A stretch of DNA of 64,000 bases, from positions 35,451,385 through 35,515,384 of the forward strand of contig NC_088295.1 in NCBI RefSeq assembly GCF_032854445.1, given 5' to 3'. This DNA is from Liolophura sinensis. Taxonomy: Eukaryota; Mollusca; Polyplacophora; Chitonida; Chitonidae. Each line of letters begins with the position of its first letter. Positions within the stretch are counted from its first letter, which is position 1. This document shows, piece by piece, positions 1 through 64,000 of the stretch. Position numbers and translations under genes: made by a program. The notes beneath the pieces were generated by a model. The model ran no database searches. It was not told the DNA's origin and saw only the letters and a list, made by a program, of their open reading frames with translations.

Positions 1-3411
<3,411 letters not shown>

Positions 3412-34990: not shown

Positions 34991-35129
34991 ATGTTTTACA
35001 GAGAAATTGAGTTTGTGTTTTGTGCTCTTTGTTTGATACAACTGTCATTACTTTCAGTATCGACAAATTCGCAAACTAGCAGCACAACACCTCCCGGGAA
35101 ATACAATGTCACAGGGCCCAAGCCTTCAG
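34991..35129 (+). CDS. Exon 1 of the unknown gene: signal peptide
   Basis: ATG at 34991 opens 46 codons and one extra base before TCAG|GTATGA. The product starts MFYREIEFVFCALCLIQLSL; cleavage somewhere around SVS/TNS is plausible. It then reads TSSTTPPGKYNVTGPKPS, with NVT as a possible N-glycosylation site. The leftover G joins GT of exon 2 to make Gly. Confidence 0.65.
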
Positions 35130-38100: not shown

Positions 38101-41100
38101 TCTTGCTTTGCAAAAATACTTTATAGACATTTACATGCTGTTTTATTTAGTAATTTATTGTTTTTGCTGTGATTCATTTTGTTTTTATGCACCTGCCATT
38201 AGGTGGCATTATGCTACAGCGATTTTGTCTGTCTGTCTGTCTATTGTCATGTCTGGCTATATCTCAGATTATTTTCCGTGTGCAGGTTTAATTTTTGGTT
38301 GCTACCTTGATACTGAGGTAATGATGTGTACGACTCCAATCTGTTTTCCACGTTGAATTTTGAGTTTTGAGGATACATAGATACACAGATGACGATGTTT
38401 CACAACTCACATTCATCTATTTCCGCGATTGTCATGGTAACCGGATCGCCATTTTCCATATGTATACTATGTAAATAGATACGATTTTGTGTCCGAGCTA
38501 CATGTACTACACCTAGTGTTTTCACGTACGTAGATTTATTTATTTGTTTGATTGGTGTTTTACGCCAATGATGTATATGATGGCAGCCAGCATAAGAAAC
38601 TGGGCAGAGCCCAGGAGAAACCCACAACCATCCGCAGGTTGCTTGAAGACCTTCCCAGGTGTACCAATAGTTTTTTGTCACTATTGTAGCTATAGTTTAG
38701 ACCGAAACAATCTGTAGGAACTGACACAATTTACAACCTGTTTTAACCATTGCATCGCTTTTCTTGGCAGCTGTATATTGTAGCTGATTTTCACATTCTG
38801 CTTTGCAGTTTGATCCCTTCAGTCACTATCCACAACTAAACATACCTAGGAAACACCTACTCCTGACAAGAAAATGACTACTCCAACACTTACTACCCAA
38901 AACGCAACTGTTCCTTCCAAAATTTCAACCATTTTCCATTTGTATGCTATGTAGATAGATACAATTTCGTGTCGGAGCTACTACTCCAAGTGTTTTCACA
39001 TACCAGTAGATTTATTTTTTTATTTGATTGGTGTTTTACACTGTACTCAAGAAAATAACTACTCCAACTGTTATTACCCAAAACACAACTGTTCCTTCCA
39101 AGAATTCAGGTGGTTAGCGGTTGCAGTAAAATAAACACTATAGGGACTTGGATTCTTATGGGCAGCTCATTTGAAGCGTTCATTCTATCCAACATTGTGC
39201 TGATACACATGTCCTATTACTAGATGCGATGTACTAAAAATTGTTGCAAACTGCATGTTTATCGGGTAGCATGCTTACAATATTCATACATTCATCCTAG
39301 ACATGAGAACATGATAAATGCATTATATGGCATGTGGATCTACATGTAATGTGCCAAATAAAGTAAATTGTCGTTTGGATAATTTTTCCAGCACTGCAAG
39401 TTCTGCATTTATTCACACAGGTCAACAATTTTCAGCACACATGCAGTACATACATAGCCCTTTGCCATTTTCAGCTTTACATGTGTAATGGTTTTCTGTC
39501 ATGTGGCCTCCAAATGTGGGGATTTAGCGCTTTTACCAACTTTATTTGCAACCTGCGTCAAAACAATCCATCGCAGAAAAGAATAGAAAAGACCAGAGTC
39601 GTCATGAGAATATCAAACTTTGTCTGGTAGCATATGTAAAATATTTAAACTCCGGAAATTTTGGTTAGGTGACAAATTTGGTAATCGGTACATTTCAACA
39701 GTTTTGAATATATTGAACTGATTCTTTTATGCTTCATTTCCCCCAACATGTTCTGTCAGCATTCTGAAAATTAACAGTTGTGGATAAAAATATTTCCAAA
39801 GTGAGCTGGATTTGAACCTCAAATTGCTAAATATTGTATGCAAGAAAAACATAAAAAGGAAGAATGATGAGGAATAGACTGGACTTGAATCACAGACTGC
39901 TAGGACTGGTAGTGTAATATCTGTTAGTTTTGTGAGAATGAAAAAGAACAAAGTAAAAATATGGGCAAGAATTAACTGGATTTGAACCGCAGGTGACTGT
40001 CAGTTACAGCTTCTGTGAAGACCAGTGAATAGAAATTAAAGATTGTCCTCTGCTAACAGTGCTAGATTGCATGTATGAAGAGATTATGGCTTTGATCACG
40101 AGAGTGTTTCTTTAATTTACTTCCCCTGGCAGCAGACAAATTTAGAATACATGTCCTGTAGCTAGAAAAACTACATACAGTCTAGCAGGAAGCTCCCATT
40201 TTATTTCAAAGGTAAGGTTGGGTTGTCAAATTTTTGTTGCTTTTTTGGTGGATTATAACATGAAAATAATACAAAGTACATGTACAAAAACAATTCTGGT
40301 AGATTTGTAATCCTGATGTAGGGGAGCACCAGCCTGTGTGTTTTGTTAAAAGCATTGGTTTGTTGGCCTAGTTTGCATACCAAACCGAAAGTCTTTTTAC
40401 CAGCAGAGTATGATGATAAGCGTGGAATCAGCAAGTGAAATTTTGTATTGAAAGCTTTTGCTGTTTTTGAGGAGAAAATTTTTTAAGCTTATGAGTAAAA
40501 TTAAAAATTTGATATTTTAGTGTTATCATATATATGGTCATCAGAAGCTGTTTCATGATCACAAAAGTCTAAGGCTTTCACTTTTTCTTTTTCAGGTAAT
40601 GGAGGGACTAGTGAAAGTCCAGGTAATCCCATTGCCTTGTGTTATGAAATAATGATAAATTGAAGCTGTTGCCATGGTTGCTGTCACTAGTCTTTTACCA
40701 CTTCTGGTAGCCAGATGTATATAAAGCTCATGATAATTGAGAAAAAAATGTGGAACAAAGATGGTATTAATTCACCAGGTTTGAGTGGGAGACTCTTAAA
40801 ATGTACATTCAAAACAGAAAGTTATCAAAGAGGAAAGAAGATATATGTGAGCAAATTGTTGCAAACTACATGTTTATCGGGTAGCATGCTTACAATATTC
40901 ATACATTCATCCTAGACATGAGATCATGATAAATGCATTATATGGCATGTGGATCTACATGTAATGTGCCAAATAAAGTAAATTGTCGTTTGGATAATTT
41001 TTCCAGCACTGCAAGTTCTGCATTTATTCACACAGGTCAACAATTTTCAGCACACATGCAGTACATACATAGCCCTTTGCCATTTTCAGCTTTACATGTG

Positions 41101-44100
41101 TAATGGTTTTCTGTCATGTGGCCTCCAAATGTGGGGATTTAGCGCTTTTACCAACTTTATTTGCAACCTGCGTCTAAACAATCCATCGCAGAAAAGAATA
41201 GAAAAGACCAGAGTCGTCATGAGAATATCAAACTTTGTCTGGTAGCATATGTAAAATATTTAAACTCCGGAAATTTTGGTTAGGTGACAAATTTGGTAAT
41301 CGGTACATTTCAACAGTTTTGAATATATTGAACTGATTCTTTTATGCTTCATTTCCCCCAACATGTTCTGTCAGCGTTCTGAAAATTAACAGTTGTGGAT
41401 AAAAATATTTCCAAAGTGAGCTGGATTTGAACCTCAAATTGCTAAATATTGTATGCAAGAAAAACATAAAAAGGAAGAATGATGAGGAATAGACTGGACT
41501 TGAATCACAGACTGCTAGGACTGGTAGTGTAATATCTGTTAGTTTTGTGAGAATGAAAAAGAACAAAGTAAAAATATGGGCAAGAATTAACTGGATTTGA
41601 ACCGCAGGTGACTGTCAGTTACAGCTTCTGTGAAGACCAGGGAATAGAAATTGAAGATTGTCCTCTGCTAACAGTGCTAGATTGCATGTATGAAGAGATT
41701 ATGGCTTTGATCACGAGAGTGTTTCTTTAATTTACTTCCCCTGGCAGCAGACAAATTTAGAATACATGTCCTGTAGCTAGAAAAACTACATACAGTCTAG
41801 CAGGAAGCTCCCATTTTATTTCAAAGGTAAGGTTGGGTTGTCAAATTTTTGTTGCTTTTTTGGTGGATTATAACATGAAAATAATACAAAGTACATGTAC
41901 AAAAACAATTCTGGTAGATTTGTAATCTTGATGTAGGGGAGCACCAGCCTGTGTGTTTTGTTAAAAGCATTGGTTTGTTGGCCTAGTTTGCATACCAAAG
42001 TGAAAGTTATTTTACCAGCAGAATAGGATGATAAGCATAGAATCAGCAAGTGAAATTTTGTATTGAAAGCTTTTGCTGTTTTTGAGGAGAAAATTTTTTA
42101 AGCTTATGAGTAAAATTAAAAATTACCGATAAATCACTTTTGCTAACAACACAATGAATACACAATCCATAAAATTGTACATTTGTGTCAAATTGGTTTT
42201 TGGTGTTGGGTTAAAAGAAGCGAGATAGGTTTATACTTGATGGATTTAGCTATAGACTAGACTTTTCCTTAATTTTAAACATTTTGGGGTTTAAAAGTAT
42301 TGACAAAATGAACTTGAAACAAAAAGTTCTTCAATTGAGTTTTGTGTGGTTTAAATTTTAAATAGGAGAACCACAATTTGCAATACATTTTAGTAGTGTA
42401 ATTTTATTTTCAAACTGTTATGATGGTATATAGAAGTTGAGTTAAGCTATTTAAGTATTTATTCTTGTCATGTCAGTAGCCATTGAAATGAATATACTAG
42501 GTATTAGGTAGTATTGGTATTAAACGATAAACTTTGCTATTTGATTTCTTGGTATTTTTTCTGTGGCATGTCAGTATGTAGGTATTCAAACAAGGAAATA
42601 TACAATTCTGAAAATATATAAGTATTTGTCCTTGCTATATGTGATTGGAAATTGGAATGATATGAGTTGATTTATTTTATTGTAAATTACGGTGCAACTT
42701 TGGGCATTAATCTTGATATTTTAGTGTTATCATATATATGGTCATCAGAAGCTGTTTCATGATCACAAAAGTCTAAGGCTTTCACTTTTTCTTTTTCAGG
42801 TAATGGAGGGACTAGTGAAAGTCCAGGTAATCCCATTGCCTTGTGTTATGAAATAATGATAAATTGAAGCTGTTGCCATGGTTGCTGTCACTAGTCTTTT
42901 ACCACTTCTGGTAGCCAGATGTATATAAAGCTCATGATAATTGAGAAAAAAATGTGGAACAAAGATGGTATTAATTCACCAGGTTTGAGTGGGAGACTCT
43001 TAAAATGTACATTCAAAACAGAAAGTTATCAAAGAGAAAAGAAGATATATGTGAGCGAATTGTTGCAAACTACATGTTTATCGGGTAGCATGCTTACAAT
43101 ATTCATACATTCATCCTAGACATGAGAACATGATAAATGCATTATATGGCATGTGGATCTACATGTAATGTGCCAAATAAAGTAAATTGTCGTTTGGATA
43201 ATTTTTCCAGCACTGCAAGTTCTGCATTTATTCACACAGGTCAACAATTTTCAGCACACATGCAGTACATACATAGCCCTTTGCCATTTTCAGCTTTACA
43301 TGTGTAATGGTTTTCTGTCATGTGGCCTCCAAATGTGGGGATTTAGCGCTTTTACCAACTTTATTTGCAACCTGCGTCAAAACAATCCATCGCAGAAAAG
43401 AATAGAAAAGACCAGAGTCGTCATGAGAATATCAAACTTTGTCTGGTAGCATATGTAAAATATTTAAACTCCGGAAATTTTGGTTAGGTGACAAATTTGG
43501 TAATCGGTACATTTCAACAGTTTTGAATATATTGAACTGATTCTTTTATGCTTCATTTCCCCCAACATGTTCTGTCAGCGTTCTGAAAATTAACAGTTGT
43601 GGATAAAAATATTTCCAAAGTGAGCTGGATTTGAACCTCAAATTGCTAAATATTGTATGCAAGAAAAACATAAAAAGGAAGAATGATGAGGAATAGACTG
43701 GACTTGAATCACAGACTGCTAGGACTGGTAGTGTAATATCTGTTAGTTTTGTGAGAATGAAAAAGAACAAAGTAAAAATATGGGCAAGAATTAACTGGAT
43801 TTGAACCGCAGGTGACTGTCAGTTACAGCTTCTGTGAAGACCAGGGAATAGAAATTGAAGATTGTCCTCTGCTAACAGTGCTAGATTGCATGTATGAAGA
43901 GATTATGGCTTTGATCACGAGAGTGTTTCTTTAATTTACTTCCCCTGGCAGCAGACAAATTTAGAATACATGTCCTGTAGCTAGAAAAACTACATACAGT
44001 CTAGCAGGAAGCTCCCATTTTATTTCAAAGGTAAGGTTGGGTTGTCAAATTTTTGTTGCTTTTTTGGTGGATTATAACATGAAAATAATACAAAGTACAT

Positions 44101-47100
44101 GTACAAAAACAATTCTGGCAGATTTGTAATCCTGATGTAGGGGAGCACCAGCCTGTGTGTTTTGTTAAAAGCATTGGTTTGTTGGCCTAGTTTGCATACC
44201 AAACCGAAAGTCTTTTTACCAGCAGAGTAGGATGATAAGCGTGGAATCAGCAAGTGAAATTTTGTATTGAAAGCTTTTGCTGTTTTTGAGGAGAAAATTT
44301 TTTAAGCTTATGAGTAAAATTAAAAATTGCCGATAAATCACTTTTGCTAACAACACAATGAATACACAATCCATAAAATTGTACATTTGTGTCAAATTGG
44401 TTTTTGGTGTTGGGTTAAAAGAAGCGAGATAGGTTTATACTTGATGGATTTAGCTATAGACTAGACTTTTCCTTAATTTTAAACATTTTGGGGTTTAAAA
44501 GTATTGACAAAATGAACTTGAAACAAAAAGTTCTTCAAATAAGTTTTGTGTGGTTTAAATTTTAAATAGGAGAACCACAATTTGCAATACATTTTAGTAG
44601 TGTAATTTTATTTTCAAACTGTTATGATGGTATATAGAAGTTGAGTTAAGCTATTTAAGTATTTATTCTTGTCATGTCAGTAGCCATTGAAATGAATATA
44701 CTAGGTATTAGGTAGTATTGGTATTAAACGATAAACTTTGCTCTTTGATTTCTTGGTATTTTTTCTGTGGCATGTCAGTATGTAGGTATTCAAACAAGGA
44801 AATATACAATTCTGAAAATATATAAGTATTTGTCCTTGCTATATGTGATTGGAAATTGGAATGATATGAGTTGATTTATTTTATTGTAAATTACGGTGCA
44901 ACTTTCGGCATTAATCTTGATATTTTAGTGTTATCATATATATGGTCATCAGAAGCTGTTTCATGATCACAAAAGTCTAAGGCTTTCACTTTTTCTTTTT
45001 CAGGTAATGGAGGGACTAGTGAAAGTCCAGGTAATCCCATTGCCTTGTGTTATGAAATAATGATAAATTGAAGCTGTTGCCATGGTTGCTGTCACTAGTC
45101 TTTTACCACTTCTGGTAGCCAGATGTATATAAAGCTCATGATAATTGAGAAAAAAATGTGGAACAAAGATGGTATTAATTCACCAGGTTTGAGTGGGAGA
45201 CTCTTAAAATGTACATTCAAAACAGAAAGTTATCAAAGAGGAAAGAAGATATATGTGAGCAAATTGTTGCAAACTACATGTTTATCGGGTAGCATGCTTA
45301 CAATATTCATACATTCATCCTAGACATGAGATCATGATAAATGCATTATATGGCATGTGGATCTACATGTAATGTGCCAAATAAAGTAAATTGTCGTTTG
45401 GATAATTTTTCCAGCACTGCAAGTTCTGCATTTATTCACACAGGTCAACAATTTTCAGCACACATGCAGTACATACATAGCCCTTTGCCATTTTCAGCTT
45501 TACATGTGTAATGGTTTTCTGTCATGTGGCCTCCAAATGTAGGGATTTAGCGCTTTTACCAACTTTATTTGCAACCTGCGTCAAAACAATCCATCGCAGA
45601 AAAGAATAGAAAAGACCAGAGTCGTCATGAGAATATCAAACTTTGTCTGGTAGCATATGTAAAATATTTAAACTCCGGAAATTTTGGTTAGGTGACAAAT
45701 TTGGTAATCGGTACATTTCAACAGTTTTGAATATATTGAACTGATTCTTTTATGCTTCATTTCCCCCAACATGTTCTGTCAGCGTTCTGAAAATTAACAG
45801 TTGTGGATAAAAATATTTCCAAAGTGAGCTGGATTTGAACCTCAAATTGCTAAATATTGTATGCAAGAAAAACATAAAAAGGAAGAATGATGAGGAATAG
45901 ACTGGACTTGAATCACAGACTGCTAGGACTGGTAGTGTAATATCTGTTAGTTTTGTGAGAATGAAAAAGAACAAAGTAAAAATATGGGCAAGAATTAACT
46001 GGATTTGAACCGCAGGTGACTGTCAGTTACAGCTTCTATGAAGACCAGGGAATAGAAATTGAAGATTGTCCTCTGCTAACAGTGCTAGATTGCATGTATG
46101 AAGAGATTATGGCTTTGATCACGAGAGTGTTTCTTTAATTTACTTCCCCTGGCAGCAGACAAATTTAGAATACATGTCCTGTAGCTAGAAAAACTACATA
46201 CAGTCTAGCAGGAAGCTCCCATTTTATTTCAAAGGTAAGGTTGGGTTGTCAAATTTTTGTTGCTTTTTTGGTGGATTATAACATGAAAATAATACAAAGT
46301 ACATGTACAAAAACAATTCTGGTAGATTTGTAATCTTGATGTAGGGGAGCACCAGCCTGTGTGTTTTGTTAAAAGCATTGGTTTGTTGGCCTAGTTTGCA
46401 TACCAAAGTGAAAGTTATTTTACCAGCAGAATAGGATGATAAGCATAGAATCAGCAAGTGAAATTTTGTATTGAAAGCTTTTGCTGTTTTTGAGGAGAAA
46501 ATTTTTTAAGCTTATGAGTAAAATTAAAAATTACCGATAAATCACTTTTGCTAACAACACAATGAATACACAATCCATAAAATTGTACATTTGTGTCAAA
46601 TTGGTTTTTGGTGTTGGGTTAAAAGAAGCGAGATAGGTTTATACTTGATGGATTTAGCTATAGACTAGACTTTTCCTTAATTTTAAACATTTTGGGGTTT
46701 AAAAGTATTGACAAAATGAACTTGAAACAAAAAGTTCTTCAATTGAGTTTTGTGTGGTTTAAATTTTAAATAGGAGAACCACAATTTGCAATACATTTTA
46801 GTAGTGTAATTTTATTTTCAAACTGTTATGATGGTATATAGAAGTTGAGTTAAGCTATTTAAGTATTTATTCTTGTCATGTCAGTAGCCATTGAAATGAA
46901 TATACTAGGTATTAGGTAGTATTGGTATTAAACGATAAACTTTGCTCTTTGATTTCTTGGTATTTTTTCTGTGGCATGTCAGTATGTAGGTATTCAAACA
47001 AGGAAATATACAATTCTGAAAATATATAAGTATTTGTCCTTGCTATATGTGATTGGAAATTGGAATGATATGAGTTGATTTATTTTATTGTAAATTACGG

Positions 47101-50100
47101 TGCAACTTTCGGCATTAATCTTGATATTTTAGTGTTATCATATATATGGTCATCAGAAGCTGTTTCATGATCACAAAAGTCTAAGGCTTTCACTTTTTCT
47201 TTTTCAGGTAATGGAGGGACTAGTGAAAGTCCAGGTAATCCCATTGCCTTGTGTTATGAAATAATGATAAATTGAAGCTGTTGCCATGGTTGCTGTCACT
47301 AGTCTTTTACCACTTCTGGTAGCCAGATGTATATAAAGCTCATGATAATTGAGAAAAAAATGTGGAACAAAGATGGTATTAATTCACCAGGTTTGAGTGG
47401 GAGACTCTTAAAATGTACATTCAAAACAGAAAGTTATCAAAGAGAAAAGAAGATATATGTGAGCGAATTGTTGCAAACTACATGTTTATCGGGTAGCATG
47501 CTTACAATATTCATACATTCATCCTAGACATGAGAACATGATAAATGCATTATATGGCATGTGGATCTACATGTAATGTGCCAAATAAAGTAAATTGTCG
47601 TTTGGATAATTTTTCCAGCACTGCAAGTTCTGCATTTATTCACACAGGTCAACAATTTTCAGCACACATGCAGTACATACATAGCCCTTTGCCATTTTCA
47701 GCTTTACATGTGTAATGGTTTTCTGTCATGTGGCCTCCAAATGTGGGGATTTAGCGCTTTTACCAACTTTATTTGCAACCTGCGTCAAAACAATCCATCG
47801 CAGAAAAGAATAGAAAAGACCAGAGTCGTCATGAGAATATCAAACTTTGTCTGGTAGCATATGTAAAATATTTAAACTCCGGAAATTTTGGTTAGGTGAC
47901 AAATTTGGTAATCGGTACATTTCAACAGTTTTGAATATATTGAACTGATTCTTTTATGCTTCATTTCCCCCAACATGTTCTGTCAGCATTCTGAAAATTA
48001 ACAGTTGTGGATAAAAATATTTCCAAAGTGAGCTGGATTTGAACCTCAAATTGCTAAATATTGTATGCAAGAAAAACATAAAAAGGAAGAATGATGAGGA
48101 ATAGACTGGACTTGAATCACAGACTGCTAGGACTGGTAGTGTAATATCTGTTAGTTTTGTGAGAATGAAAAAGAACAAAGTAAAAATATGGGCAAGAATT
48201 AACTGGATTTGAACCGCAGGTGACTGTCAGTTACAGCTTCTGTGAAGACCAGTGAATAGAAATTAAAGATTGTCCTCTGCTAACAGTGCTAGATTGCATG
48301 TATGAAGAGATTATGGCTTTGATCACGAGAGTGTTTCTTTAATTTACTTCCCCTGGCAGCAGACAAATTTAGAATACATGTCCTGTAGCTAGAAAAACTA
48401 CATACAGTCTAGCAGGAAGCTCCCATTTTATTTCAAAGGTAAGGTTGGGTTGTCAAGTTTTTGTTGCTTTTTTGGTGGATTATAACATGAAAATAATACA
48501 AAGTACATGTACAAAAACAATTCTGGTAGATTTGTAATCCTGATGTAGGGGAGCACCAGCCTGTGTGTTTTGTTAAAAGCATTGGTTTGTTGGCCTAGTT
48601 TGCATACCAAACCGAAAGTCTTTTTACCAGCAGAGTAGGATGATAAGCGTGGAATCAGCAAGTGAAATTTTGTATTGAAAGCTTTTGCTGTTTTTGAGGA
48701 GAAAATTTTTTAAGCTTATGAGTAAAATTAAAAATTGCCGATAAATCACTTTTGCTAACAACACAATGAATACACAATCCATAAAATTGTACATTTGTGT
48801 CAAATTGGTTTTTGGTGTTGGGTTAAAAGAAGCGAGATAGGTTTATACTTGATGGATTTAGCTATAGACTAGACTTTTCCTTAATTTTAAACATTTTGGG
48901 GTTTAAAAGTATTGACAAAATGAACTTGAAACAAAAAGTTCTTCAATTGAGTTTTGTGTGGTTTAAATTTTAAATAGGAGAACCACAATTTGCAATACAT
49001 TTTAGTAGTGTAATTTTATTTTCAAACTGTTATGATGGTATATAGAAGTTGAGTTAAGCTATTTAAGTATTTATTCTTGTCATGTCAGTAGCCATTGAAA
49101 TGAATATACTAGGTATTAGGTAGTATTGGTATTAAACGATAAACTTTGCTCTTTGATTTCTTGGTATTTTTTCTGTGGCATGTCAGTATGTAGGTATTCA
49201 AACAAGGAAATATACAATTCTGAAAATATATAAGTATTTGTCCTTGCTATATGTGATTGGAAATTGGAATGATATGAGTTGATTTATTTTATTGTAAATT
49301 ACGGTGCAACTTTGGGCATTAATCTTGATATTTTAGTGTTATCATATATATGGTCTTCAGAAGCTGTTTCATGATCACAAAAGTCTAAGGCTTTCACTTT
49401 TTCTTTTTCAGGTAATGGAGGGACTAGTGAAAGTCCAGGTAATCCCATTGCCTTGTGTTATGAAATAATGATAAATTGAAGCTGTTGCCATGGTTGCTGT
49501 CACTAGTCTTTTACCACTTCTGGTAGCCAGATGTATATAAAGCTCATGATAATTGAGAAAAAAATGTGGAACAAAGATGGTATTAATTCACCAGGTTTGA
49601 GTGGGAGACTCTTAAAATGTACATTCAAAACAGAAAGTTATCAAAGAGGAAAGAAGATATATGTGAGCAAATTGTTGCAAACTACATGTTTATCGGGTAG
49701 CATGCTTACAATATTCATACATTCATCCTAGACATGAGAACATGATAAATGCATTATATGGCATGTGGATCTACATGTAATGTGCCAAATAAAGTAAATT
49801 GTCGTTTGGATAATTTTTCCAGCACTGCAAGTTCTGCATTTATTCACACAGGTCAACAATTTTCAGCACACATGCAGTACATACATAGCCCTTTGCCATT
49901 TTCAGCTTTACATGTGTAATGGTTTTCTGTCATGTGGCCTCCAAATGTGGGGATTTAGCGCTTTTACCAACTTTATTTGCAACCTGCGTCAAAACAATCC
50001 ATCGCAGAAAAGAATAGAAAAGACCAGAGTCGTCATGAGAATATCAAACTTTGTCTGGTAGCATATGTAAAATATTTAAACTCCGGAAATTTTGGTTAGG

Positions 50101-53100: not shown

Positions 53101-56100
53101 TTTGAGGAGAAAATTTTTTAAGCTTATGAGTAAAATTAAAAATTGCCGATAAATCACTTTTGCTAACAACACAATGAATACACAATCCATAAAATTGTAC
53201 ATTTGTGTCAAATTGGTTTTTGGTGTTGGGTTAAAAGAAGCGAGATAGGTTTATACTTGATGGATTTAGCTATAGACTAGACTTTTCCTTAATTTTAAAC
53301 ATTTTGGGGTTTAAAAGTATTGACAAAATGAACTTGAAACAAAAAGTTCTTCAATTGAGTTTTGTGTGGTTTAAATTTTAAATAGGAGAACCACAATTTG
53401 CAATACATTTTAGTAGTGTAATTTTATTTTCAAACTGTTATGATGGTATATAGAAGTTGAGTTAAGCTATTTAAGTATTTATTCTTGTCATGTCAGTAGC
53501 CATTGAAATGAATATACTAGGTATTAGGTAGTATTGGTATTAAACGATAAACTTTGCTCTTTGATTTCTTGGTATTTTTTCTGTGGCATGTCAGTATGTA
53601 GGTATTCAAACAAGGAAATATACAATTCTGAAAATATATAAGTATTTGTCCTTGCTATATGTGATTGGAAATTGGAATGATATGAGTTGATTTATTTTAT
53701 TGTAAATTACGGTGCAACTTTGGGCATTAATCTTGATATTTTAGTGTTATCATATATATGGTCATCAGAAGCTGTTTCATGATCACAAAAGTCTAAGGCT
53801 TTCACTTTTTCTTTTTCAGGTGATGGAAAAAATGGAGGGACTAGTGAAAGTCCAGGTAATCCCATTGCCTTGTGTTATGAAATAATGATAAATTGGAGCT
53901 GTTGCCATGGTTGCTGTCACTAGTCTTTTACCACTTCTGGTAGCCAGATGTATATAAAGCTCTTATAATTGAGAAAAAAATGTGGAACAAAGATGGTATT
54001 AATTCAGCAGGTTTGAGTGGGAGACTCTTAAAATGTACATTCAAAACAGAAAGTTATCAAAGAGGAAAGAAGATATATGTGAGCAAATTGTTGCAAACTA
54101 CATGTTTATCGGGTAGCATGCTTACAATATTCATACATTCATCCTAGACATGAGAACATGATAAATGCATTATATGGCATGTGGATCTACATGTAATGTG
54201 CCAAATAAAGTAAATTGTCGTTTGGATAATTTTTCCAGCACTGCAAGTTCTGCATTTATACACACAGGTCAACAATTTTCAGCACACATGCAGTACATAC
54301 ATAGCCCTTTGCCATTTTCAGCTTTACATGTGTAATGGTTTTCTGTCATGTGGCCTCCAAATGTGGGGATTTAGCGCTTTTACCAACTTTATTTGCAACC
54401 TGCGTCAAAACAATCCATCGCAGAAAAGAATAGAAAAGACCAGAGTCGTCATGAGAATATCAAACTTTGTCTGGTAGCATATGTAAAATATTTAAACTCA
54501 AGAAATTTTGGTTAGGTGACAAATTTGGTAATCGGTACATTTCAACAGTTTTGAATATATGTAACTGATTCTTTTATGCTTCATTTCCCCCAACATGTTC
54601 TGTCAGCATTCTGAAAATTAACAGTTGTGGATAAAAATATTTCCAAAGTGAGCTGGATTTGAACCTCAAATTGCTAAATATTGTATGCAAGAAAAACATA
54701 AAAAGGAAGAATGATGAGGAATGGACTGGACTTGAATCACAGACTGCTAGGACTGGTAGTGAAATATCTGTTAGTTTTGTGAGAATGAAAAAGAACAAAG
54801 TAAAAATATGGGCAAGAATTAACTGGATTTGAACCGCAGGTGACTGTCAGTTACAACTTCTGTGAAGACCAGTGAATAGAAATTAAAGATTGTCCTCTGC
54901 TAACAGTGCTAGATTGCATGTATGAAGAGATTATGGCTTTGATCACGAGAGTGTTTCTTTAATTTACTTCCCCTGGCAGCAGACAAATTTAGAGTACATG
55001 TCCTGTAGCTAGAAAAACTACATACAGTCTAGCAGGAAGCTCCCATTCTATTTCAAAGGTAAGGTTGGGTTGTCAAATTTTTGTTGCTTTTTTGGTGGAT
55101 TATAACATGAAAATAATACAAAGTACATGTACAAAAACAATTCTGGTAGATTTGTAATCCTGATGTAGGGGAGCACCAGCCTGTGTGTTTTGTTAAAAGC
55201 ATTGGTTTGTTGACCTAGTTTGCATACCAAACCGAAAGTCTTTTTACCAGCAGAGTAGGATGATAAGCGTGGAATCAGCAAGTGAAATTTTGTATTGAAA
55301 GCTTTTGCTGTTTTTGAGGAGAAAATTTTTTAAGCTTATGAGTAAAATTAAAAATTGCCGATAAATCACTTTTGCTAACAACACAATGAATACACAATCC
55401 ATAAAATTGTACATTTGTGTCAAATTGGTTTTTGGTGTTGGGTTAAAAGAAGCGAGATAGGTTTATACTTGATGGATTTAGCTATAGACTAGACTTTTCC
55501 TTAATTTTAAACATTTTGGGGTTTAAAAGTATTGACAAAATGAACTTGAAACAAAAAGTTCTTCAAATAAGTTTTGTGTGGTTTAAATTTTAAATAGGAG
55601 AACCACAATTTGCAATACATTTTAGTAATGTAATTTTATTTTCAAACTGTTATGATGGTATATAGAAGTTGAGTTAAGCTATTTAAGTATTTATTCTTGT
55701 CATGTCAGTAGCCATTGAAATGAATATACTAGGTATTAGGTAGTATTGGTATTAAACGATAAACTTTGCTCTTTGATTTCTTGGTATTTTTTCTGTGGCA
55801 TGTCAGTATGTAGGTATTCAAACAAGGAAATATACAGTTTTGAAAATATATAAGCATTTGTCCTTGCTATATGTGATTGGAAATTGGAATGATATGAGTT
55901 GATTTATTTTATTGTAAATTACGGTGCAACTTTCGGCATTAATCTTGATATTTTAGTGTTATCATATATATGGTCATCAGAAGCTGTTTCATGATCACAA
56001 AAGTCTAAGGCTTTCACTTTTTCTTTTTCAGGTAATGGAGGGACTAGTGAAAGTCCAGGTAATCCCATTGCCTTGTGTTACGAAATAATGATAAATTGGA

Positions 56101-59100
56101 GCTGTTGCCATGGTTGCTGTCACTAGTCTTTTACCACTTCTGGTAGCCAGATGTATATAAAGCTCATGATAATTGAGAAAAAAATGTGGAACAAAGATGG
56201 TATTAATTCAGCAGGTTTGAGTGGGGGACTCTTAAAATGTACATTCAAAACAGAAAGTTATCAAAGAGGAAAGAAGATATATGTGAGCAAATTGTTGCAA
56301 ACTACATGTTTATCGGGTAGCATGCTTACAATATTCATACATTCATCCTAGACATGAGAACGTGATAAATGCATTATATGGCATGTGGATCTACATGTAA
56401 TGTGCCAAATAAAGTAAATTGTCGTTTGGATAATTTTTCCAGCACTGCAAGTTCTGCATTTATTCACACAGGTCAACAATTTTCAGCACACATGCAGTAC
56501 ATACATAGCCCTTTGCCATTTTCAGCTTTACATGTGTAATGGTTTTCTGTCATGTGGCCTCCAAATGTGGGGATTTAGCGCTTTTACCAACTTTATTTGC
56601 AACCTGCGTCAAAACAATCCATCGCAGAAAAGAATAGAAAAGACCAGAGTCGTCATGAGAATATCAAACTTTGTCTGGTAGCATATGTAAAATATTTAAA
56701 CTCCGGAAATTTTGGTTAGGTGACAAATTTGGTAATCGGTACATTTCAACAGTTTTGAATATATTGAACTGATTCTTTTATGCTTCATTTCCCCCAACAT
56801 GTTCTGTCAGCATTCTGAAAATTAACAGTTGTGGATAAAAATATTTCCAAAGTGAGCTGGATTTGAACCTCAAATTGCTAAATATTGTATGCAAGAAAAA
56901 CATAAAAAGGAAGAATGATGAGGAATGGACTGGACTTGAATCACAGACTGCTAGGACTGGTAGTGAAATATCTGTTAGTTTTGTGAGAATGAAAAAGAAC
57001 AAAGTAAAAATATGGGCAAGAATTAACTGGATTTGAACCGCAGGTGACTGTCAGTTACAGCTTCTGTGAAGACCAGTGAATAGAAATTAAAGATTGTCCT
57101 CTGCTAACAGTGCTACATTGCATGTATGAAGAGATTATGGCTTTGATCACGAGAGTGTTTCTTTAATTTACTTCCCCTGGCAGCAGACAAATTTAGAATA
57201 CATGTCCTGTAGCTAGAAAAACTACATACAGTCTAGCAGGAAGCTCCCATTTTATTTCAAAGGTAAGGTTGGGTTGTCAAATTTTTGTTGCTTTTTTGGT
57301 GGATTATAACATGAAAATAATACAAAGTACATGTACAAAAACAATTCTGGTAGATTTGTAATCCTGATGTAGGGGAGCACCAGCCTGTGTGTTTTGTTAA
57401 AAGCATTGGTTTGTTGGCCTAGTTTGCATACCAAACCGAAAGTCATTTTACCAGCAGAGTAGGATGATAAGCGTGGAATCAGCAAGTGAAATTTTGTATT
57501 GAAAGCTTTTGCTGTTTTTGAGGAGAAAATTTTTTAAGCTTATGAGTAAAATTAAAAATTGCCGATAAATCACTTTTGCTAACAACACAATGAATACACA
57601 ATCCATAAAATTGTACATTTGTGTCAAATTGGTTTTTGGTGTTGGGTTAAAAGAAGCGAGATAGGTTTATACTTGATGGATTTAGCTATAGACTAGACTT
57701 TTCCTTAATTTTAAACATTTTGGGGTTTAAAAGTATTGACAAAATGAACTTGAAACAAAAAGTTCTTCAAATAAGTTTTGTGTGGTTTAAATTTTAAATA
57801 GGAGAACCACAATTTGCAATACATTTTAGTAATGTAATTTTATTTTCAAACTGTTATGATGGTATATAGAAGTTGAGTTAAGCTATTTAAGTATTTATTC
57901 TTGTCATGTCAGTAGCCATTGAAATGAATATACTAGGTATTAGGTAGTATTGGTATTAAACGATAAACTTTGCTCTTTGATTTCTTGGTATTTTTCTGTG
58001 GCATGTCAGTATGTAGGTATTCAAACAAGGAAATATACAGTTTTGAAAATATATAAGTATTTGTCCTTGCTATATATGATTGGAAATTGGAATGATATGA
58101 GTTGATTTATTTTATTGTAAATTACGGTGCAACTTTCGGCATTAATCTTGATATTTTAGTGTTATCATATATATGGTCATCAGAAGCTGTTTCATGATCA
58201 CAAAAGTCTAAGGCTTTCACTTTTTCTTTTTCAGGTAATGGAGGGACTAGTGAAAGTCCAGGTAATCCCATTGCCTTGTGTTACGAAATAATGATAAATT
58301 GGAGCTGTTGCCATGGTTGCTGTCACTAGTCTTTTACCACTTCTGGTAGCCAGATGTATATAAAGCTCATGATAATTGAGAAAAAAATGTGGAACAAAGA
58401 TGGTATTAATTCAGCAGGTTTGAGTGGGAGACTCTTAAAATGTACATTCAAAACAGAAAGTTATCAAAGAGGAAAGAAGATATATGTGAGCAAATTGTTG
58501 CAAACTACATGTTTATCGGGTAGCATGCTTACAATATTCATACATTCATCCTAGACATGAGAACATGATAAATGCATTATATGGCATGTGGATCTACATG
58601 TAATGTGCCAAATAAAGTAAATTGTCGTTTGGATAATTTTTCCAGCACTGCAAGTTCTGCATTTATTCACACAGGTCAACAATTTTCAGCACACATGCAG
58701 TACATACAGTCATGGAAAAAATTATTAGACCACTCATATTTTCTTTGGTTTCTTGTTCATTTTAATGCCTGGCAACCCTAAAGGTGTATTAACCGAAGAT
58801 TACAATGAATACGACAAAAATCCAGCTGATTCCATAATACTTTGTCGTATTTGATATGCTTTAAGGTCAGTTGTATTCCTAGGGTGTATGCCAGGCAATT
58901 TCATGCTTTCCATTTACATGCAGACTTACATAAAGAGTGGTTTCCTGTTTACATGTAGGCTTACATAAATAGGGGTCTCTTGTTTATATATTAAGACGCA
59001 GCACAACTCGGTAGTTGTCAGCTCTCATAATGCCTAAAACGAAAGAATTATGTGGAGCCAGAAAGGCAGCCATCTTGGCATAGCTGGATACTGGATTGAG

Positions 59101-62100
59101 CGAGCGACAAGTGGCCAAAAAACTGAAGATCTCTAAGACAGCAGTTCATTACACCAAGAAAAAGCAAGCCGAACATGGTACTACAAAACTGCTAGCTGGT
59201 CGAGGCAGGAAACGTCTTTCTACCCCACGAGATGACCGAGCACTCATCCGGTCCTGTATCAAGAATCGTCGTCAGACCTCCAGAGACCTTAGAAATGAGT
59301 GGGCATTGTCAACAAATGTGACTTGTTCAGCAAGAACAGTTCGAAACCGACTCCTTGAAGCTGGTCTAAAGTCGCACAAGGCACGGAAGAAGCCCTTCAT
59401 CAACGAGAGGCAGCGGAAGGCCCGCTTGCGTTTTGCGAGGGATCACAAGAATTGGACTGTTGATGATTGGGCTAAAGTTCTCTTCAGTGATGAATCCAAT
59501 TTTGAGTTGATGCCTACTCCAGCCAACTTACTGGTTAGGAGGAAGCCTGGGGAAGCCTACAAACGAGACTGCCTTGCTCCTACTGTAAAGCATGGGGGTG
59601 GATCAGTGATGATCTGGGGTTGTTTCAGTATGGGTGGAACAGGACAGATGCAGTTGTGTGAAGGGAGAATGAACCAAGTCACATACAGAGCTACTCTTGA
59701 AAACAGTCTTCTTCCATCAGCTGCTAAACTCTTTCCTGGCTCGAATGACTGGATTTTCCAACAAGACAATGCCCCTTGCCACACGGCAAGGTCAGTTAAA
59801 ACCTGGATAGAGAACCGGAACATTCGAACCATGAATTGGCCTGCTCAGTCACCTGATCTGAATCCAATTGAAAACCTGTGGAATATTATCAAGTTCAAAA
59901 TGGAGAACCACAAGCCCAAAAACAAAGCAAATTTGTTCGAATTTTTGCAACAGGAATGGGCTGCTGTGACCGCAGGGCAATGTAACAAACTGGTGGAGAG
60001 CATGCCAAGGCGCATGGCTGCAGTCATCAAAAACAATGGGCATGCAATCAAGTACTAACTCCCGTGTGAGACTGAGAGTCATGTGACTACGTGACTAGGA
60101 GACAGGAGAAAAAATGAAATGCCAAAATGTTTTTGAGAATACAGTTGCCACATCTACAGATGTATGAACTTAAGTGATTTTGGTCATTGTAAAGAAAGTC
60201 ATAGAGAACTGATAGATATCACCTCTTAAATAAAACCCTTATGAACTATTTCTGTTTTCATCACTTTCTTTGCCCAAACAAATGTTCCTTCAGTTGTGCA
60301 AGGTTTTAAAATGAACAAGAAATGGGAGAAAGCAAGGGTGGTCTAATAATTTTTTCCATGACTGTACATAGCCCTTTGCCATTTTCAGCTTTACATGTGT
60401 AATGGTTTTCTGTCATGTGGCCTCCAAATGTGGGGATTTAGCGCTTTTACCAACTTTATTTGCAACCTGCGTCAAAACAATTCATCGCAGAAAAGAATAG
60501 AAAAGACCAGAGTCGTCATGAGAATATCAAACTTTGTCTCGTAGCATATGTAAAATATTTAAACTCAAGAAATTTTGGTTAGGTGACAAATTTGGTAATC
60601 GGTACATTTCAACAGTTTTGAATATATTGAACTGATTTCTTTATGCTTCATTTCCCCCAACATGTTCTGTCAGCATTCTGAAAATTAACAGTTGTGGATA
60701 AAAATATTTCCAAAGTGAGCTGGATTTGAACCTCAAATTGCTAAATATTGTATGCAAGAAAAACATAAAAAGGAAGAATGATGAGGAATAGACTGGACTT
60801 GAATCACAGACTGCTAGGACTGGTAGTGAAATATCTGTTAGTTTTGTGAGAATGAAAAAGAACAAAGTAAAAATATGGGCAAGAATTAACTGGATTTGAA
60901 CCGCAGGTGACTGTCAGTTACAGCTTCTGTGAAGACCAGTGAATAGAAATTGAAGATTGTCATCTGCTAACAGTGCTAGATTGCATGTATGAAGAGATTA
61001 TGGCTTTGATCACAAGAGTGTTTCTTTAATTTACTTCCCCTGGCAGCAGACAAATTTAGAATACATGTCCTGTAGCTAGAAAAACTACATACAGTCTAGC
61101 ACTAGGCTCCCATTTTATTTCAAAGGTAAGGTTGGGTTGTCAAATTTTTGTTGCTTTTTTGGTGGATTATAACATGAAAATAATACAAAGTACATGTACA
61201 AAAACAATTCTGGCAGATTTGTAATCCTGATGTAGGGGAGCACCAGCCTGTGTGTTTTGTTAAAAGCATTGGTTTGTTGGCCTAGTTTGCATACCAAACT
61301 GAAAGTTTTTTTACCAGCAGAGTAGGATGATAAGCGTGGAATCAGCAAGTGAAATTTTGTATTGAGAGCTTTTGCTGTTATTGAGGAGAAAATTTTTTAA
61401 GCTTATGAGTAAAATTAAAAATTGCCGATAAATCACTTTTGCTAACAACACAGTGAATACACAATCCATAAAATTGTACATCTGTGTCAAATTGGTTTTT
61501 GGTGTTGGGTTAAAAGATGCGAGATAGGTTTATACTTGATGGATTTAGCTATAGACTAGACTTTTCCTTAATTTTAAACATTTTGGGGTTTAAAAGTATT
61601 GACAAAATGAACTTGAAACAAAAAGTTCTTCAAATAAGTTTTGTGTGGTTTAAATTTTAAATAGGAGAACCACAATTTGCAATACATTTTAGTAGTGTAA
61701 TTTTATTTTCAAACTGTTATGATGGTATATAGAAGTTGAGTTAAGCTATTTAAGTATTTATTCTTGTCATGTCAGTAGCCATTGAAATGAATATACTAGG
61801 TATTAGGTAGTATTGGTATTAAACGATAAACTTTGCTCTTTGATTTCTTGGTATTTTTTCTGTGGCATGTCAGTATGTAGGTATTCAAACAAGGAAATAT
61901 ACAGTTCTGAAAATATATAAGTATTTGTCCTTGCTATATGTGATTGGAAATTGGAATGATATGAGTTGATTTATTTTATTGTAAATTACGGTGCAACTTT
62001 GGGCATTAATCTTGATATTTTAGTGCTATCATATATATGGTCATCAGAAGCTGTTTCATGATCACAAAAGTCTAAGGCTTTCACTTTTTCTTTTTCAGGT

Positions 62101-62134
62101 GATGGAAAAAATAGAGGGACTAGTGAAAGTCCAG
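34991..62134 (+). CDS. Unrecognised secreted/membrane protein gene with tandemly repeated mini-exons (3' end outside window)
   Basis: Model: exon 1 34991-35129, exon 2 37703-38086, then up to ten mini-exons spaced about 2.2 kb from 40596 to 62134, continuing past the window. Exon 1 starts at the first in-frame ATG and encodes a probable signal peptide (hydrophobic core FVFCALCLIQLSLLSV) followed by a Ser/Thr/Pro-rich stretch. Exon 2 encodes 128 residues with eight cysteines and NCS and NTS, plus NIT, potential N-glycosylation sites. Each mini-exon encodes GNGGTSESP or a 12-residue variant. Every exon junction is phase 1, so the frame holds whichever mini-exons are used. A cysteine-rich ectodomain on a Ser/Thr/Gly repeat stalk is a reasonable guess. 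I do not recognise the family; a mucin-like or TGN38-like membrane protein is possible. No membrane segment is visible within the window. Confidence 0.6.
35742..35865 (+). mobile_element. SINE, 3' half
   Basis: TCGGGCTCTGCCCGGTTTCC, GATAATGCTGGCCGCCGTCG, TATAAGTGAAATATTCTTGA, GTACGGTGTAAAACACCAAT and a (AAAT)n end. It is among the best preserved tails in the window; the tRNA-like head is missing. Confidence 0.9.
35946..36197 (+). mobile_element. Full-length tRNA-headed SINE
   Basis: The head begins near CCCCGGCTTCCGTGGCTTAG (box A TGGCTTAGTTGG) and has CTGTGAATTCAGGTCC (box B). The middle CAGCAACCTGCAGATGGTCA and CCTCCGGGCTCTGCCTGGTT is followed by the tail TGTAAAACACCAATCAAATA and AAATAAATAAATG. 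At about 250 bp it serves as the reference copy for the family here. It lies in intron 1 of the unknown gene. Confidence 0.92.
36198..36720. other. Intron 1 of the unknown gene, unique sequence
   Basis: No coding signal is seen. A phrase near 36255-36310 (AGTGGTCTTTAATAACGTTA, TTGTGCAACAGCCACATGAG) recurs loosely at about 36625-36670, suggesting an old local duplication. Confidence 0.4.
36720..37195. repeat. 50-bp tandem repeat, about 9.5 copies
   Basis: GTAATGTGGACTTCCAGAAT followed by AGGGAGTGATGTACACTGTC and AGCACAGTGA repeats; GTAA marks lie at 36727 and 36777. One copy near 36940 carries an extra short insertion. It lies in intron 1 of the unknown gene. Confidence 0.92.
37535..37595 (-). 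mobile_element. SINE tail fragment
   Basis: GATTTATATAATTGGTGTTT and TACGCTGTACTCAAGACTTT. It sits just upstream of exon 2 of the unknown gene. Confidence 0.6.
37703..38086 (+). CDS. Exon 2 of the unknown gene: cysteine-rich domain
   Basis: The acceptor is TGATTGCAG|GT and the donor TTACAG|GTAGTT. 384 nt gives a phase-1 symmetric exon. It encodes eight cysteines (in NCS, RCG, FCGY, VCTD, RCEDL, YCQFICAG and FCQLF) and the helical-looking segment CEDLRKLAAEIEQIH. The even cysteine count suits disulphide pairing in a secreted domain. No known domain is recognised. Confidence 0.7.
38533..38665 (-). mobile_element. SINE fragment
   Basis: TTTATTTATTTGTTTGATTG, GTGTTTTACGCCAATGATGT, then AACTGGGCAGAGCCCAGGAG and CCGCAGGTTGCTTGAAGACC in reverse orientation. 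A short deletion removes the TACTCAAGAATATTTC block. Confidence 0.8.
39009..39055 (-). mobile_element. SINE tail fragment
   Basis: TTTATTTTTTTATTTGATTG followed by GTGTTTTACACTGTACTCAA. It is truncated immediately after and lies next to duplicated block B2. Confidence 0.7.
40596..40622 (+). CDS. Mini-exon 1 (GNGGTSESP)
   Basis: 27 nt between TTTTTCTTTTTCAG and GTAATCCC; phase 1 at both ends. It follows the unit that lacks the 589-bp block, so the intron before it has a shorter final kilobase. Confidence 0.55.
42800..42826 (+). CDS. Mini-exon 2 (GNGGTSESP)
   Basis: Identical to mini-exon 1 and exactly 2204 bp downstream. The preceding intron is of the sequence type also found before mini-exon 4. 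Confidence 0.55.
45004..45030 (+). CDS. Mini-exon 3 (GNGGTSESP)
   Basis: Identical 27-nt exon with the same acceptor and donor. The preceding intron is of the type also found before mini-exon 5. Confidence 0.55.
47208..47234 (+). CDS. Mini-exon 4 (GNGGTSESP)
   Basis: Identical 27-nt exon; its upstream intron shares diagnostic variants with that of mini-exon 2. Confidence 0.55.
49412..49438 (+). CDS. Mini-exon 5 (GNGGTSESP)
   Basis: Identical 27-nt exon. The intron just upstream has a private A-to-T change (GGTCTTCAG in place of GGTCATCAG, near 49355). Confidence 0.55.
51616..51642 (+). CDS. Mini-exon 6 (GNGGTSESP)
   Basis: Identical 27-nt exon; its upstream intron shares rare variants (GTGCTACATTG, AGTCATTTTACC) with the intron before mini-exon 9. 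Confidence 0.55.
53820..53855 (+). CDS. Mini-exon 7, 36-nt variant (GDGKNGGTSESP)
   Basis: A 9-nt in-frame addition near the 5' end changes the start of the peptide to GDGKN while keeping GGTSESP. Acceptor, donor and phase are unchanged. The exon begins GTGATG in place of GTAATG. Confidence 0.58.
56032..56058 (+). CDS. Mini-exon 8 (GNGGTSESP)
   Basis: Standard 27-nt form. The donor-side intron carries TTACGAAATAATG in place of TTATGAAATAATG, shared with unit 9. Confidence 0.55.
58235..58261 (+). CDS. Mini-exon 9 (GNGGTSESP)
   Basis: Standard 27-nt form, 2203 bp after mini-exon 8 (one T lost from a T run near 57990). The intron after it holds the Tc1-like transposon. Confidence 0.55.
58707..60364 (+). 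mobile_element. Tc1-like transposon inserted in the array
   Basis: The left end CAGTCATGGAAAAAATTATT is mirrored at the right by AATAATTTTTTCCATGACTG, with the inverted similarity continuing into AGACCAC/GTGGTCT. TA is duplicated at 58705-58706 and 60365-60366. The neighbouring units read straight through GTACATACATAGCCC, so the empty site is known. Length is 1658 bp, and the single plus-strand transposase frame lies at 59030-60058. The near-perfect inverted ends and one-lesion frame point to recent insertion. Confidence 0.97.
59030..60058 (+). pseudogene. Tc1 family DD34E transposase with one premature stop
   Basis: It cuts and pastes the element at TA sites. From the ATG at 59030, 342 codons read through except for a TAG at codon 18 (59081-59083); everything after it is open to the TAA at 60056-60058. 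The helix-turn-helix starts LSERQVAKKLKISKTAVHY. The catalytic triad is present: Asp154 (VLFSDESNF), Asp246 (IFQQDNAPCHTA) and Glu281 (SPDLNPIENLW), with exactly 34 residues between the last two, the Tc1 signature. GGGSVMIWG and the C-terminal SMPRRMAAVIKNNGHAIKY are also family-typical. No ATG close behind the TAG would keep the DNA-binding domain. A non-ATG start or stop readthrough is the only route to a full enzyme. Confidence 0.9.
62099..62134 (+). CDS. Mini-exon 10, 36-nt variant (GDGKNRGTSESP)
   Basis: It has the same 9-nt addition as mini-exon 7 plus one G-to-A change that turns Gly into Arg. The intron after it shares with that of mini-exon 7 the short forms CTCTTATAATTG and ATATGTAACTG. 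The next mini-exon should fall near 64300, outside the window. Confidence 0.58.
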
Positions 62135-64000
62135 GTAATCCCATTGCCTTGTGTTATGAAATAATGATAAATTGGAGCTGTTGCCATGGTTGCTGTCACT
62201 AGTCTTTTACCACTTCTGGTAGCCAGATGTATATAAAGCTCTTATAATTGAGAAAAAAATGTGGAACAAAGATGGTATTAATTCAGCAGGTTTGAGTGGG
62301 AGACTCTTAAAATGTACATTCAAAACAGAAAGTTATCAAAGAGGAAAGAAGATATATGTGAGCAAATTGTTGCAAACTACATGTTTATCGGGTAGCATGC
62401 TTACAATATTCATACATTCATCCTAGACATGAGAACATGATAAATGCATTATATGGCATGTGGATCTACATGTAATGTGCCAAATAAAGTAAATTGTCGT
62501 TTGGATAATTTTTCCAGCACTGCAAGTTCTGCATTTATACACACAGGTCAACAATTTTCAGCACACATGCAGTACATACATAGCCCTTTGCCATTTTCAG
62601 CTTTACATGTGTAATGGTTTTCTGTCATGTGGCCTCCAAATGTGGGGATTTAGCGCTTTTACCAACTTTATTTGCAACCTGCGTCAAAACAATCCATCGC
62701 AGAAAAGAATAGAAAAGACCAGAGTCGTCATGAGAATATCAAACTTTGTCTGGTAGCATATGTAAAATATTTAAACTCAAGAAATTTTGGTTAGGTGACA
62801 AATTTGGTAATCGGTACATTTCAACAGTTTTGAATATATGTAACTGATTCTTTTATGCTTCATTTCCCCCAACATGTTCTGTCAGCATTCTGAAAATTAA
62901 CAGTTGTGGATAAAAATATTTCCAAAGTGAGCTGGATTTGAACCTCAAATTGCTAAATATTGTATGCAAGAAAAACATAAAAAGGAAGAATGATGAGGAA
63001 TAGACTGGACTTGAATCACAGACTGCTAGGACTGGTAGTGAAATATCTGTTAGTTTTGTGAGAATGAAAAAGAACAAAGTAAAAATATGGGCAAGAATTA
63101 ACTGGATTTGAACCGCAGGTGACTGTCAGTTACAACTTCTGTGAAGACCAGTGAATAGAAATTAAAGATTGTCCTCTGCTAACAGTGCTAGATTGCATGT
63201 ATGAAGAGATTATGGCTTTGATCACGAGAGTGTTTCTTTAATTTACTTCCCCTGGCAGCAGACAAATTTAGAATACATGTCCTGTAGCTAGAAAAACTAC
63301 ATACAGTCTAGCAGGAAGCTCCCATTCTATTTCAAAGGTAAGGTTGGGTTGTCAAATTTTTGTTGCTTTTTTGGTGGATTATAACATGAAAATAATACAA
63401 AGTACATGTACAAAAACAATTCTGGCAGATTTGTAATCCTGATGTAGGGGAGCACCAGCCTGTGTGTTTTGTTAAAAGCATTGGTTTGTTGGCCTAGTTT
63501 GCATACCAAACCGAAAGTCTTTTTACCAGCAGAGTAGGATGATAAGCGTGGAATCAGCAAGTGAAATTTTGTATTGAAAGCTTTTGCTGTTTTTGAGGAG
63601 AAAATTTTTTAAGCTTATGAGTAAAATTAAAAATTGCCGATAAATCACTTTTGCTAACAACACAATGAATACACAATCCATAAAATTGTACATTTGTGTC
63701 AAATTGGTTTTTGGTGTTGGGTTAAAAGAAGCGAGATAGGTTTATACTTGATGGATTTAGCTATAGACTAGACTTTTCCTTAATTTTAAACATTTTGGGG
63801 TTTAAAAGTATTGACAAAATGAACTTGAAACAAAAAGTTCTTCAAATAAGTTTTGTGTGGTTTAAATTTTAAATAGGAGAACCACAATTTGCAATACATT
63901 TTAGTAGTGTAATTTTATTTTCAAACTGTTATGATGGTATATAGAAGTTGAGTTAAGCTATTTAAGTATTTATTCTTGTCATGTCAGTAGCCATTGAAAT

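Follow-up and report, generated by a model that had tools for sequence, protein, structure and literature searches.

How might an animal gene build a repeat protein when almost all of the repeated DNA is intronic? The question is raised by a tandem array in the chiton Liolophura sinensis, in which a unit of about 2.2 kb carries a candidate mini-exon of only 27 or 36 nt. The array begins in a stretch of 64,000 nucleotides (the window; contig C1, NC_088295.1, positions 35451385-35515384 of the 609-Mb genome), to which the next 60 kb downstream were added; positions are given on an extended scale, in which the window is 1-64000 and the downstream sequence is numbered on to 124000. The answer that we favour, and consider likely from the sequence of the locus, is that the array is part of one chiton gene, which would encode a KCT2-family type I membrane protein with a stalk made from 15 phase-1 mini-exons and grown by unequal exchange.

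Structure of the tandem array

Sequence alignment places the array on the + strand at 39238-74331 (39238..64000 within the window; the end corresponds to C1 35525715). The initial annotation had recognised at least ten mini-exon copies; the window indeed holds 10 (eight of 27 nt and two of 36 nt), and with the extension to 74331 the total is 15, the five copies beyond the window all being of 36 nt. The first unit is truncated and about 585 bp short, and the full units lie 2,203-2,213 bp apart, one with an insertion excepted. Mini-exons 1 to 6 (40596..40622, 42800..42826, 45004..45030, 47208..47234, 49412..49438 and 51616..51642, all +) are of the 27-nt type. They are followed by mini-exon 7 (53820..53855, +), a 36-nt copy with the sequence GDGKNGGTSESP, by the 27-nt mini-exons 8 and 9 (56032..56058 and 58235..58261, both +), and then by a run of six 36-nt copies, which opens with mini-exon 10 (62099..62134, +; GDGKNRGTSESP). 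The 27-nt type (n = 8) reads GNGGTSESP, as in mini-exon 1, and the 36-nt type (n = 7) reads GDGKN[G/R]GTSESP, so that the sole length difference among the mini-exons is exactly 9 nt, in frame.

All 15 mini-exons are free of stop codons and in phase 1 at both ends, with ...CTTTTTCTTTTTCAG directly 5' and GTAATC directly 3'; the preceding CAG, the following GTAATC and the symmetric phase that were first described for the window recur in every copy. Compared with the first full unit, the pieces aligned by BLAST are 98.0-99.8% identical, except that one piece drops to 97.6% if its 9-nt exon insertion is included. The mini-exons occupy 468 of the 35,094 bp of the array (1.33%), in agreement with the earlier estimate that about 99% of the repeated DNA is intronic.

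Two longer patterns, run against the whole genome with up to 3 mismatches, found no mini-exon copies outside the array, although these patterns recover the eight 27-nt copies only. A processed copy, which could have served as proof of splicing, was sought in the whole genome with a 20-nt pattern for spliced mini-exon junctions, allowing up to 2 mismatches, and none was found: 15 of the 17 matches are the array exons with the start of their introns, and the remaining two (on C1 and C7, each with 2 mismatches) are at chance level, as a reversed-pattern control gave 8.

The proposed gene model

Upstream of the array and on the same + strand, the coding part of exon 1 (34991..35129) starts with an ATG at 34991, encodes a predicted signal peptide (MFYREIEFVFCALCLIQLSLLSVS...) and ends in phase 1 at the donor CAG/GTATGA (the slash marks the junction). 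Exon 2 (37703..38086, +) is in phase 1 at both ends and encodes a cysteine-rich segment of 128 residues, presumed luminal. The positions of this start codon and donor, of exon 2 and of the first two mini-exons had been given correctly in the initial annotation. For such a gene to be complete, the array must be followed by another phase-1 exon. One is present beyond the window, downstream of mini-exons 11-15: a transmembrane exon at 77697-77875 (C1 35529081-35529259, +), which has a phase-1 acceptor and encodes GEDDTPITGKKGDTLPKGKKDDTLTTVEEDVPTSS and a transmembrane helix. A tail exon at 80410-80553 (+) comes after it and ends in ...GDYKLLQSNVEEAMSSLDKSVTTKNYIY and a stop codon. The proposal of a signal-peptide protein with a repeat stalk built from phase-symmetric mini-exons is thereby supported at the level of sequence, the frame being open to the stop.

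The resulting model of 19 exons comprises 1,314 nt in a single open frame of 437 residues with a terminal stop. All 18 introns are of the GT-AG type, and the mini-exons account for 468 of the 1,314 coding nucleotides (36%). Two stretches exceed a hydropathy of 1.6, namely residues 5-27, the signal peptide (called by eye and from hydropathy only), and residues 365-387. The short tail contains a tyrosine sorting-type (Yxx-phi) motif, YKLL, within GDYKLL. The full model matches the Pfam family KCT2 (PF17818) with 37.8 bits over residues 363-436, where the cut-off is 26.2; taken by themselves, the last two exons score 41.5 bits. The C-terminal match has an E value of 2.8e-9. We take KCT2 to be related to the trans-Golgi proteins TGN38 and TGN46, and a signal peptide, one transmembrane helix and a short Yxx-phi tail to be features of the family; the model has all three. 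Exon 2 and the last two exons each have one match in the genome, both at the array locus. In the latter search the protein query recovered both exons, the second at 71%, being read through the intron.

In the encoded protein, a signal peptide would be followed by a cysteine-rich domain in the lumen, then by a stalk of low-complexity repeats and a single transmembrane helix, and finally by a short tail; each extra unit would add 9 or 12 residues with the frame intact. We infer that the mini-exons are spliced and included, that the product would act in the Golgi, and that the copy number of the array would vary between animals.

Two introns of the model contain minisatellites. A 50-bp minisatellite of about 9 copies lies at 36723-37197, between exons 1 and 2, and another at 76796-77567, before the transmembrane exon, gives a tandem-repeat reading (SYHALRYKLPYHIMHCATSCPI...) in all three + frames.

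Splice-site evidence

The splice sites of the mini-exons were scored with general consensus frequencies, and candidate exons were defined as stop-free segments of 15-150 nt that have both ends in phase 1 and a score of more than 2 bits for each site. The combined score is 23.4 bits and is identical in all 15 mini-exons. At 23 bits or more the array yields exactly its 15 exons, and the roughly 89 kb outside it yield no candidate on either strand; lower cut-offs give, in the same sequence, 1 candidate at 20 bits, 6 at 18 and 27 at 15. The acceptor contributes 15.6 bits, compared with 8.7-10.3 bits for the acceptors of the gene's other exons; outside the array, 0.02% of 5,045 AG sites score at least as high. 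The donor contributes 7.8 bits, reached by 1.4% of 5,272 GT sites outside the array. Because the copies descend from one another, the 15 mini-exons count as one case: this is one ancestral exon that was copied, not fifteen independent exons.

Growth of the array

Among the units (numbered U01 to U14), several of the most similar pairs lie two or three positions apart. At a lag of three, U10/U13 differ by 1 mismatch and U11/U14 by 4; at a lag of two, U01/U03 differ by 5, and U04/U06 and U10/U12 by 3 each; the neighbouring pair U12/U13 differs by 2. The mean differences for lags 1 to 5 are 18.7, 15.5, 16.4, 23.0 and 20.8. These pairwise differences suggest block copying, and the units would have increased in number, one to three at a time, through unequal exchange between their near-identical introns.

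The array opens at unit position 236 and closes at position 1140, and therefore consists of whole units plus 905 bp, such that the exons are flanked on both sides by a 905-bp direct repeat, the end copies of which are 98.9% identical. Unit positions 259-1173 match dispersed repeats in the genome, with at least 65 matches on ten contigs at 66-78% identity (38 of 561 candidates scored, the array's own copies not among them). Unequal exchange perhaps began between two pieces of this dispersed repeat, although an array trimmed at one end would give the same appearance. A single, cleanly bounded transposon is a less convincing account of the 905-bp repeat, because the matches of seven dispersed copies do not all stop at its ends: four run past the 5' end and one past the 3' end.

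Weighing of the gene model and its alternatives

Several observations weigh against the gene model or narrow it. The KCT2 alignment spans profile positions 117-186 of 187 only, and homology does not extend into the luminal part. The cysteine-rich exon 2 matches no Pfam family, and its single-sequence AlphaFold model is unusable (mean predicted local distance difference test score, pLDDT, of 45). Solved structures offered nothing convincingly related to exon 2, for which the best E value was 0.27, or to the last two exons, for which it was 0.087. A search of the genome with the KCT2 profile was empty, and equally empty in 14 control genomes, which makes it uninformative. The mini-exon donors are without G at +5. 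In the alignment of the 14 full units, 1 of 36 exonic columns is variable, against 67 of 2,191 intronic columns, and this comparison gave no sign of selection on the mini-exon, selection being unreadable because the array is too uniform for such a test. The matches to dispersed repeats cross the boundaries of the 905-bp repeat. Finally, the copy number in the assembly may be wrong, because the assembly is based on 14x HiFi coverage with a mean read length of 8.3 kb, at a heterozygosity of 1.24% (PMC11068029).

The alternative that survives best, although we think it rather unlikely, is that the mini-exon is real and mostly skipped. The array would then be a neutral intronic macrosatellite, and most mRNAs would be spliced from exon 2 straight to the transmembrane exon, or would hold one or two copies. 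Tiny exons that have no G at +5 are prone to skipping, phase 1 is kept whatever the number skipped, and exon and intron variation are alike, all of which this explanation accommodates readily. It accounts less well for a splice score that is identical in all 15 copies, for a mini-exon acceptor that is stronger than those of the gene's other exons, and for the fact that the only length change is in frame.

A further reading concerns how the mini-exons might be spliced. Every mini-exon starts with GTAATG or GTGATG (GTRATG), which is itself donor-like. When it is joined to the upstream ...CAG, the sequence CAG/GTRATG is recreated, with 8.0-8.1 bits against 7.8 for the exon's own donor in all 15 copies, by the same consensus frequencies and again with copies that do not count as independent. 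Scored as donors, the beginnings of the gene's other exons reach 0.9, 3.3 and -9.8 bits, and outside the array none of 56 acceptor-like sites is followed by such a donor-like start. An exon start that regenerates a 5' splice site upon joining is also the defining sequence feature of recursive-splice (RS) exons, whose inclusion in human cells depends on the exon junction complex and on the competition of two donors (PMC6224609; PMC8605326). In those studies RS-exons occur singly, as annotated or cryptic exons, whereas the chiton array would present 15 in a row. We regard it as quite doubtful that the mini-exons form a series of fifteen recursive-splice exons, along which the spliceosome could step, keeping or dropping 9-12 residues each time. 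The 15 copies represent one event, and the donor-like start may follow from the phase-1 glycine codon G/GT. Moreover, annotated RS-exons are described as prevalent in deuterostomes (PMC6224609/PMC8605326), and a chiton is not a deuterostome. If the reading were true, the length of the stalk would vary in steps and under regulation within one gene, for example via the exon junction complex, and copy-number variation would add to this.

An assembly artefact, in which the number of units was inflated or collapsed from a shorter or longer real array, we judge very unlikely. The read depth, read length and heterozygosity given above would permit it, as would the fact that certain units are only 1-5 bp apart. 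Against it, individual units have differences of their own, the two exon types are mostly segregated (27 nt towards the 5' end and 36 nt towards the 3' end), there is no N in the 124 kb, and one intron contains a unique transposon. This Tc1-like element of 1.66 kb (58707..60364, +) lies in the intron after mini-exon 9, in one unit only, with TA on both sides. Its ends are inverted repeats that match over 27 bp, as judged by eye, and at 59084-60058 it retains a transposase frame of 324 codons, open from stop to stop, in which the domains HTH_Tnp_Tc3_2 and DDE_3 are recognised. That the mini-exon segments are chance matches inside a tandem repeat is highly improbable: a single ancestral coincidence could have been copied 15 times, the copies not being independent, yet no equal candidate of 15-150 nt exists outside the array, the phase of the flanking exons fits, and the frame is completed by a C-terminus that matches a protein family.

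Surroundings of the locus

Two neighbouring genes were recognised in the window, one SUZ12-like from a VEFS-box exon at 1952-2203 (+) and one USP-like from a ubiquitin hydrolase exon at 31937-32158 (-). A METTL22-like identity proposed for one neighbour was without Pfam support. The region at 14050-15326 is minisatellite-like, its frames reading long tandem repeats (HVVNLNGLWHHYGYL...), and is probably not a gene. Downstream, at 97048-97467 (-), a small secreted cysteine-rich protein resembles pacifastin inhibitors, below the Pfam cut-off (21.6 vs 27.9 bits).

Comparison with known systems

In mammalian TGN46 the low-complexity repeat lumen lies within one large exon, whereas the chiton repeat is spread over 15 exons. 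The shared features are the KCT2 C-terminus, the type I topology and the tyrosine motif of the tail; PMC10928510 describes the type I topology of TGN46, the tyrosine motif of TGN38 and a poorly conserved lumen. A search of the open-access literature for TGN38/KCT2 in invertebrates or molluscs gave, among the matches listed, nothing on the chiton gene.

The schistosome micro-exon genes (MEGs), of which most of the coding region is in micro-exons, resemble the chiton gene in their very small symmetrical exons, with the frame kept under alternative splicing (PMC4350168). In the chiton gene the mini-exons are copies of one exon and make up only 36% of the coding sequence, short of a majority. The micro-exons of MEGs differ from one another, and MEGs have signal peptides.

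Spider silk genes encode structural silk proteins and have large exons, in which they differ from the chiton gene. They are alike in deriving a repeat protein from tandem exon-plus-intron units with homogenised introns (as cited in PMC2576457).

The closest parallel is provided by the SmPoMuc genes of Schistosoma mansoni; among the matches listed, a literature search for further genes with tandem mini-exons led to papers on SmPoMuc and on MEGs. According to PMC2576457, the SmPoMuc genes contain a 27-bp exon in tandem genomic repeats of about 1 kb, in up to 20 copies, which encodes the repeat region of the protein. The intronic part is over 93-94% identical, concerted evolution is described, and there is more than one type of repeated exon. 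The same source describes a multigene family of parasite mucins, with GA microsatellites between the units and up to 100 repeats in transcripts. The initial annotation knew of no described example of such an architecture, which was mistaken, because the SmPoMuc genes have their 27-bp exon in tandem repeats of about 1 kb and share the plan (PMC2576457). The chiton array has the same short exon in kilobase-scale tandem repeats with near-identical introns. It differs in that the gene was found once and encodes a putative membrane protein, and in its 2.2-kb units and two exon lengths (27 and 36 nt). A multigene, multi-locus family of the SmPoMuc type is not seen here, exon 2 and the last two exons matching the array locus only. 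The intronic hammerhead ribozyme of SmPoMuc was also looked for, and no Rfam match was obtained at gathering thresholds in the 64-kb window, the last introns lying beyond it.

The chiton array is the SmPoMuc plan in another setting. New are the other kind of gene, found once in its genome, the free-living animal, the 2.2-kb units, the two exon lengths and the donor-like GTRATG at every mini-exon start. The array offers a natural test of how the spliceosome deals with fifteen near-identical tiny exons, and of whether stalk length is set by copy number or by splicing choice. Should the model prove right, the tandem mini-exon architecture of the schistosome mucins would have arisen in a different kind of gene and in a free-living animal as well, and would be a more general way of building repeat proteins, not a peculiarity of parasites.

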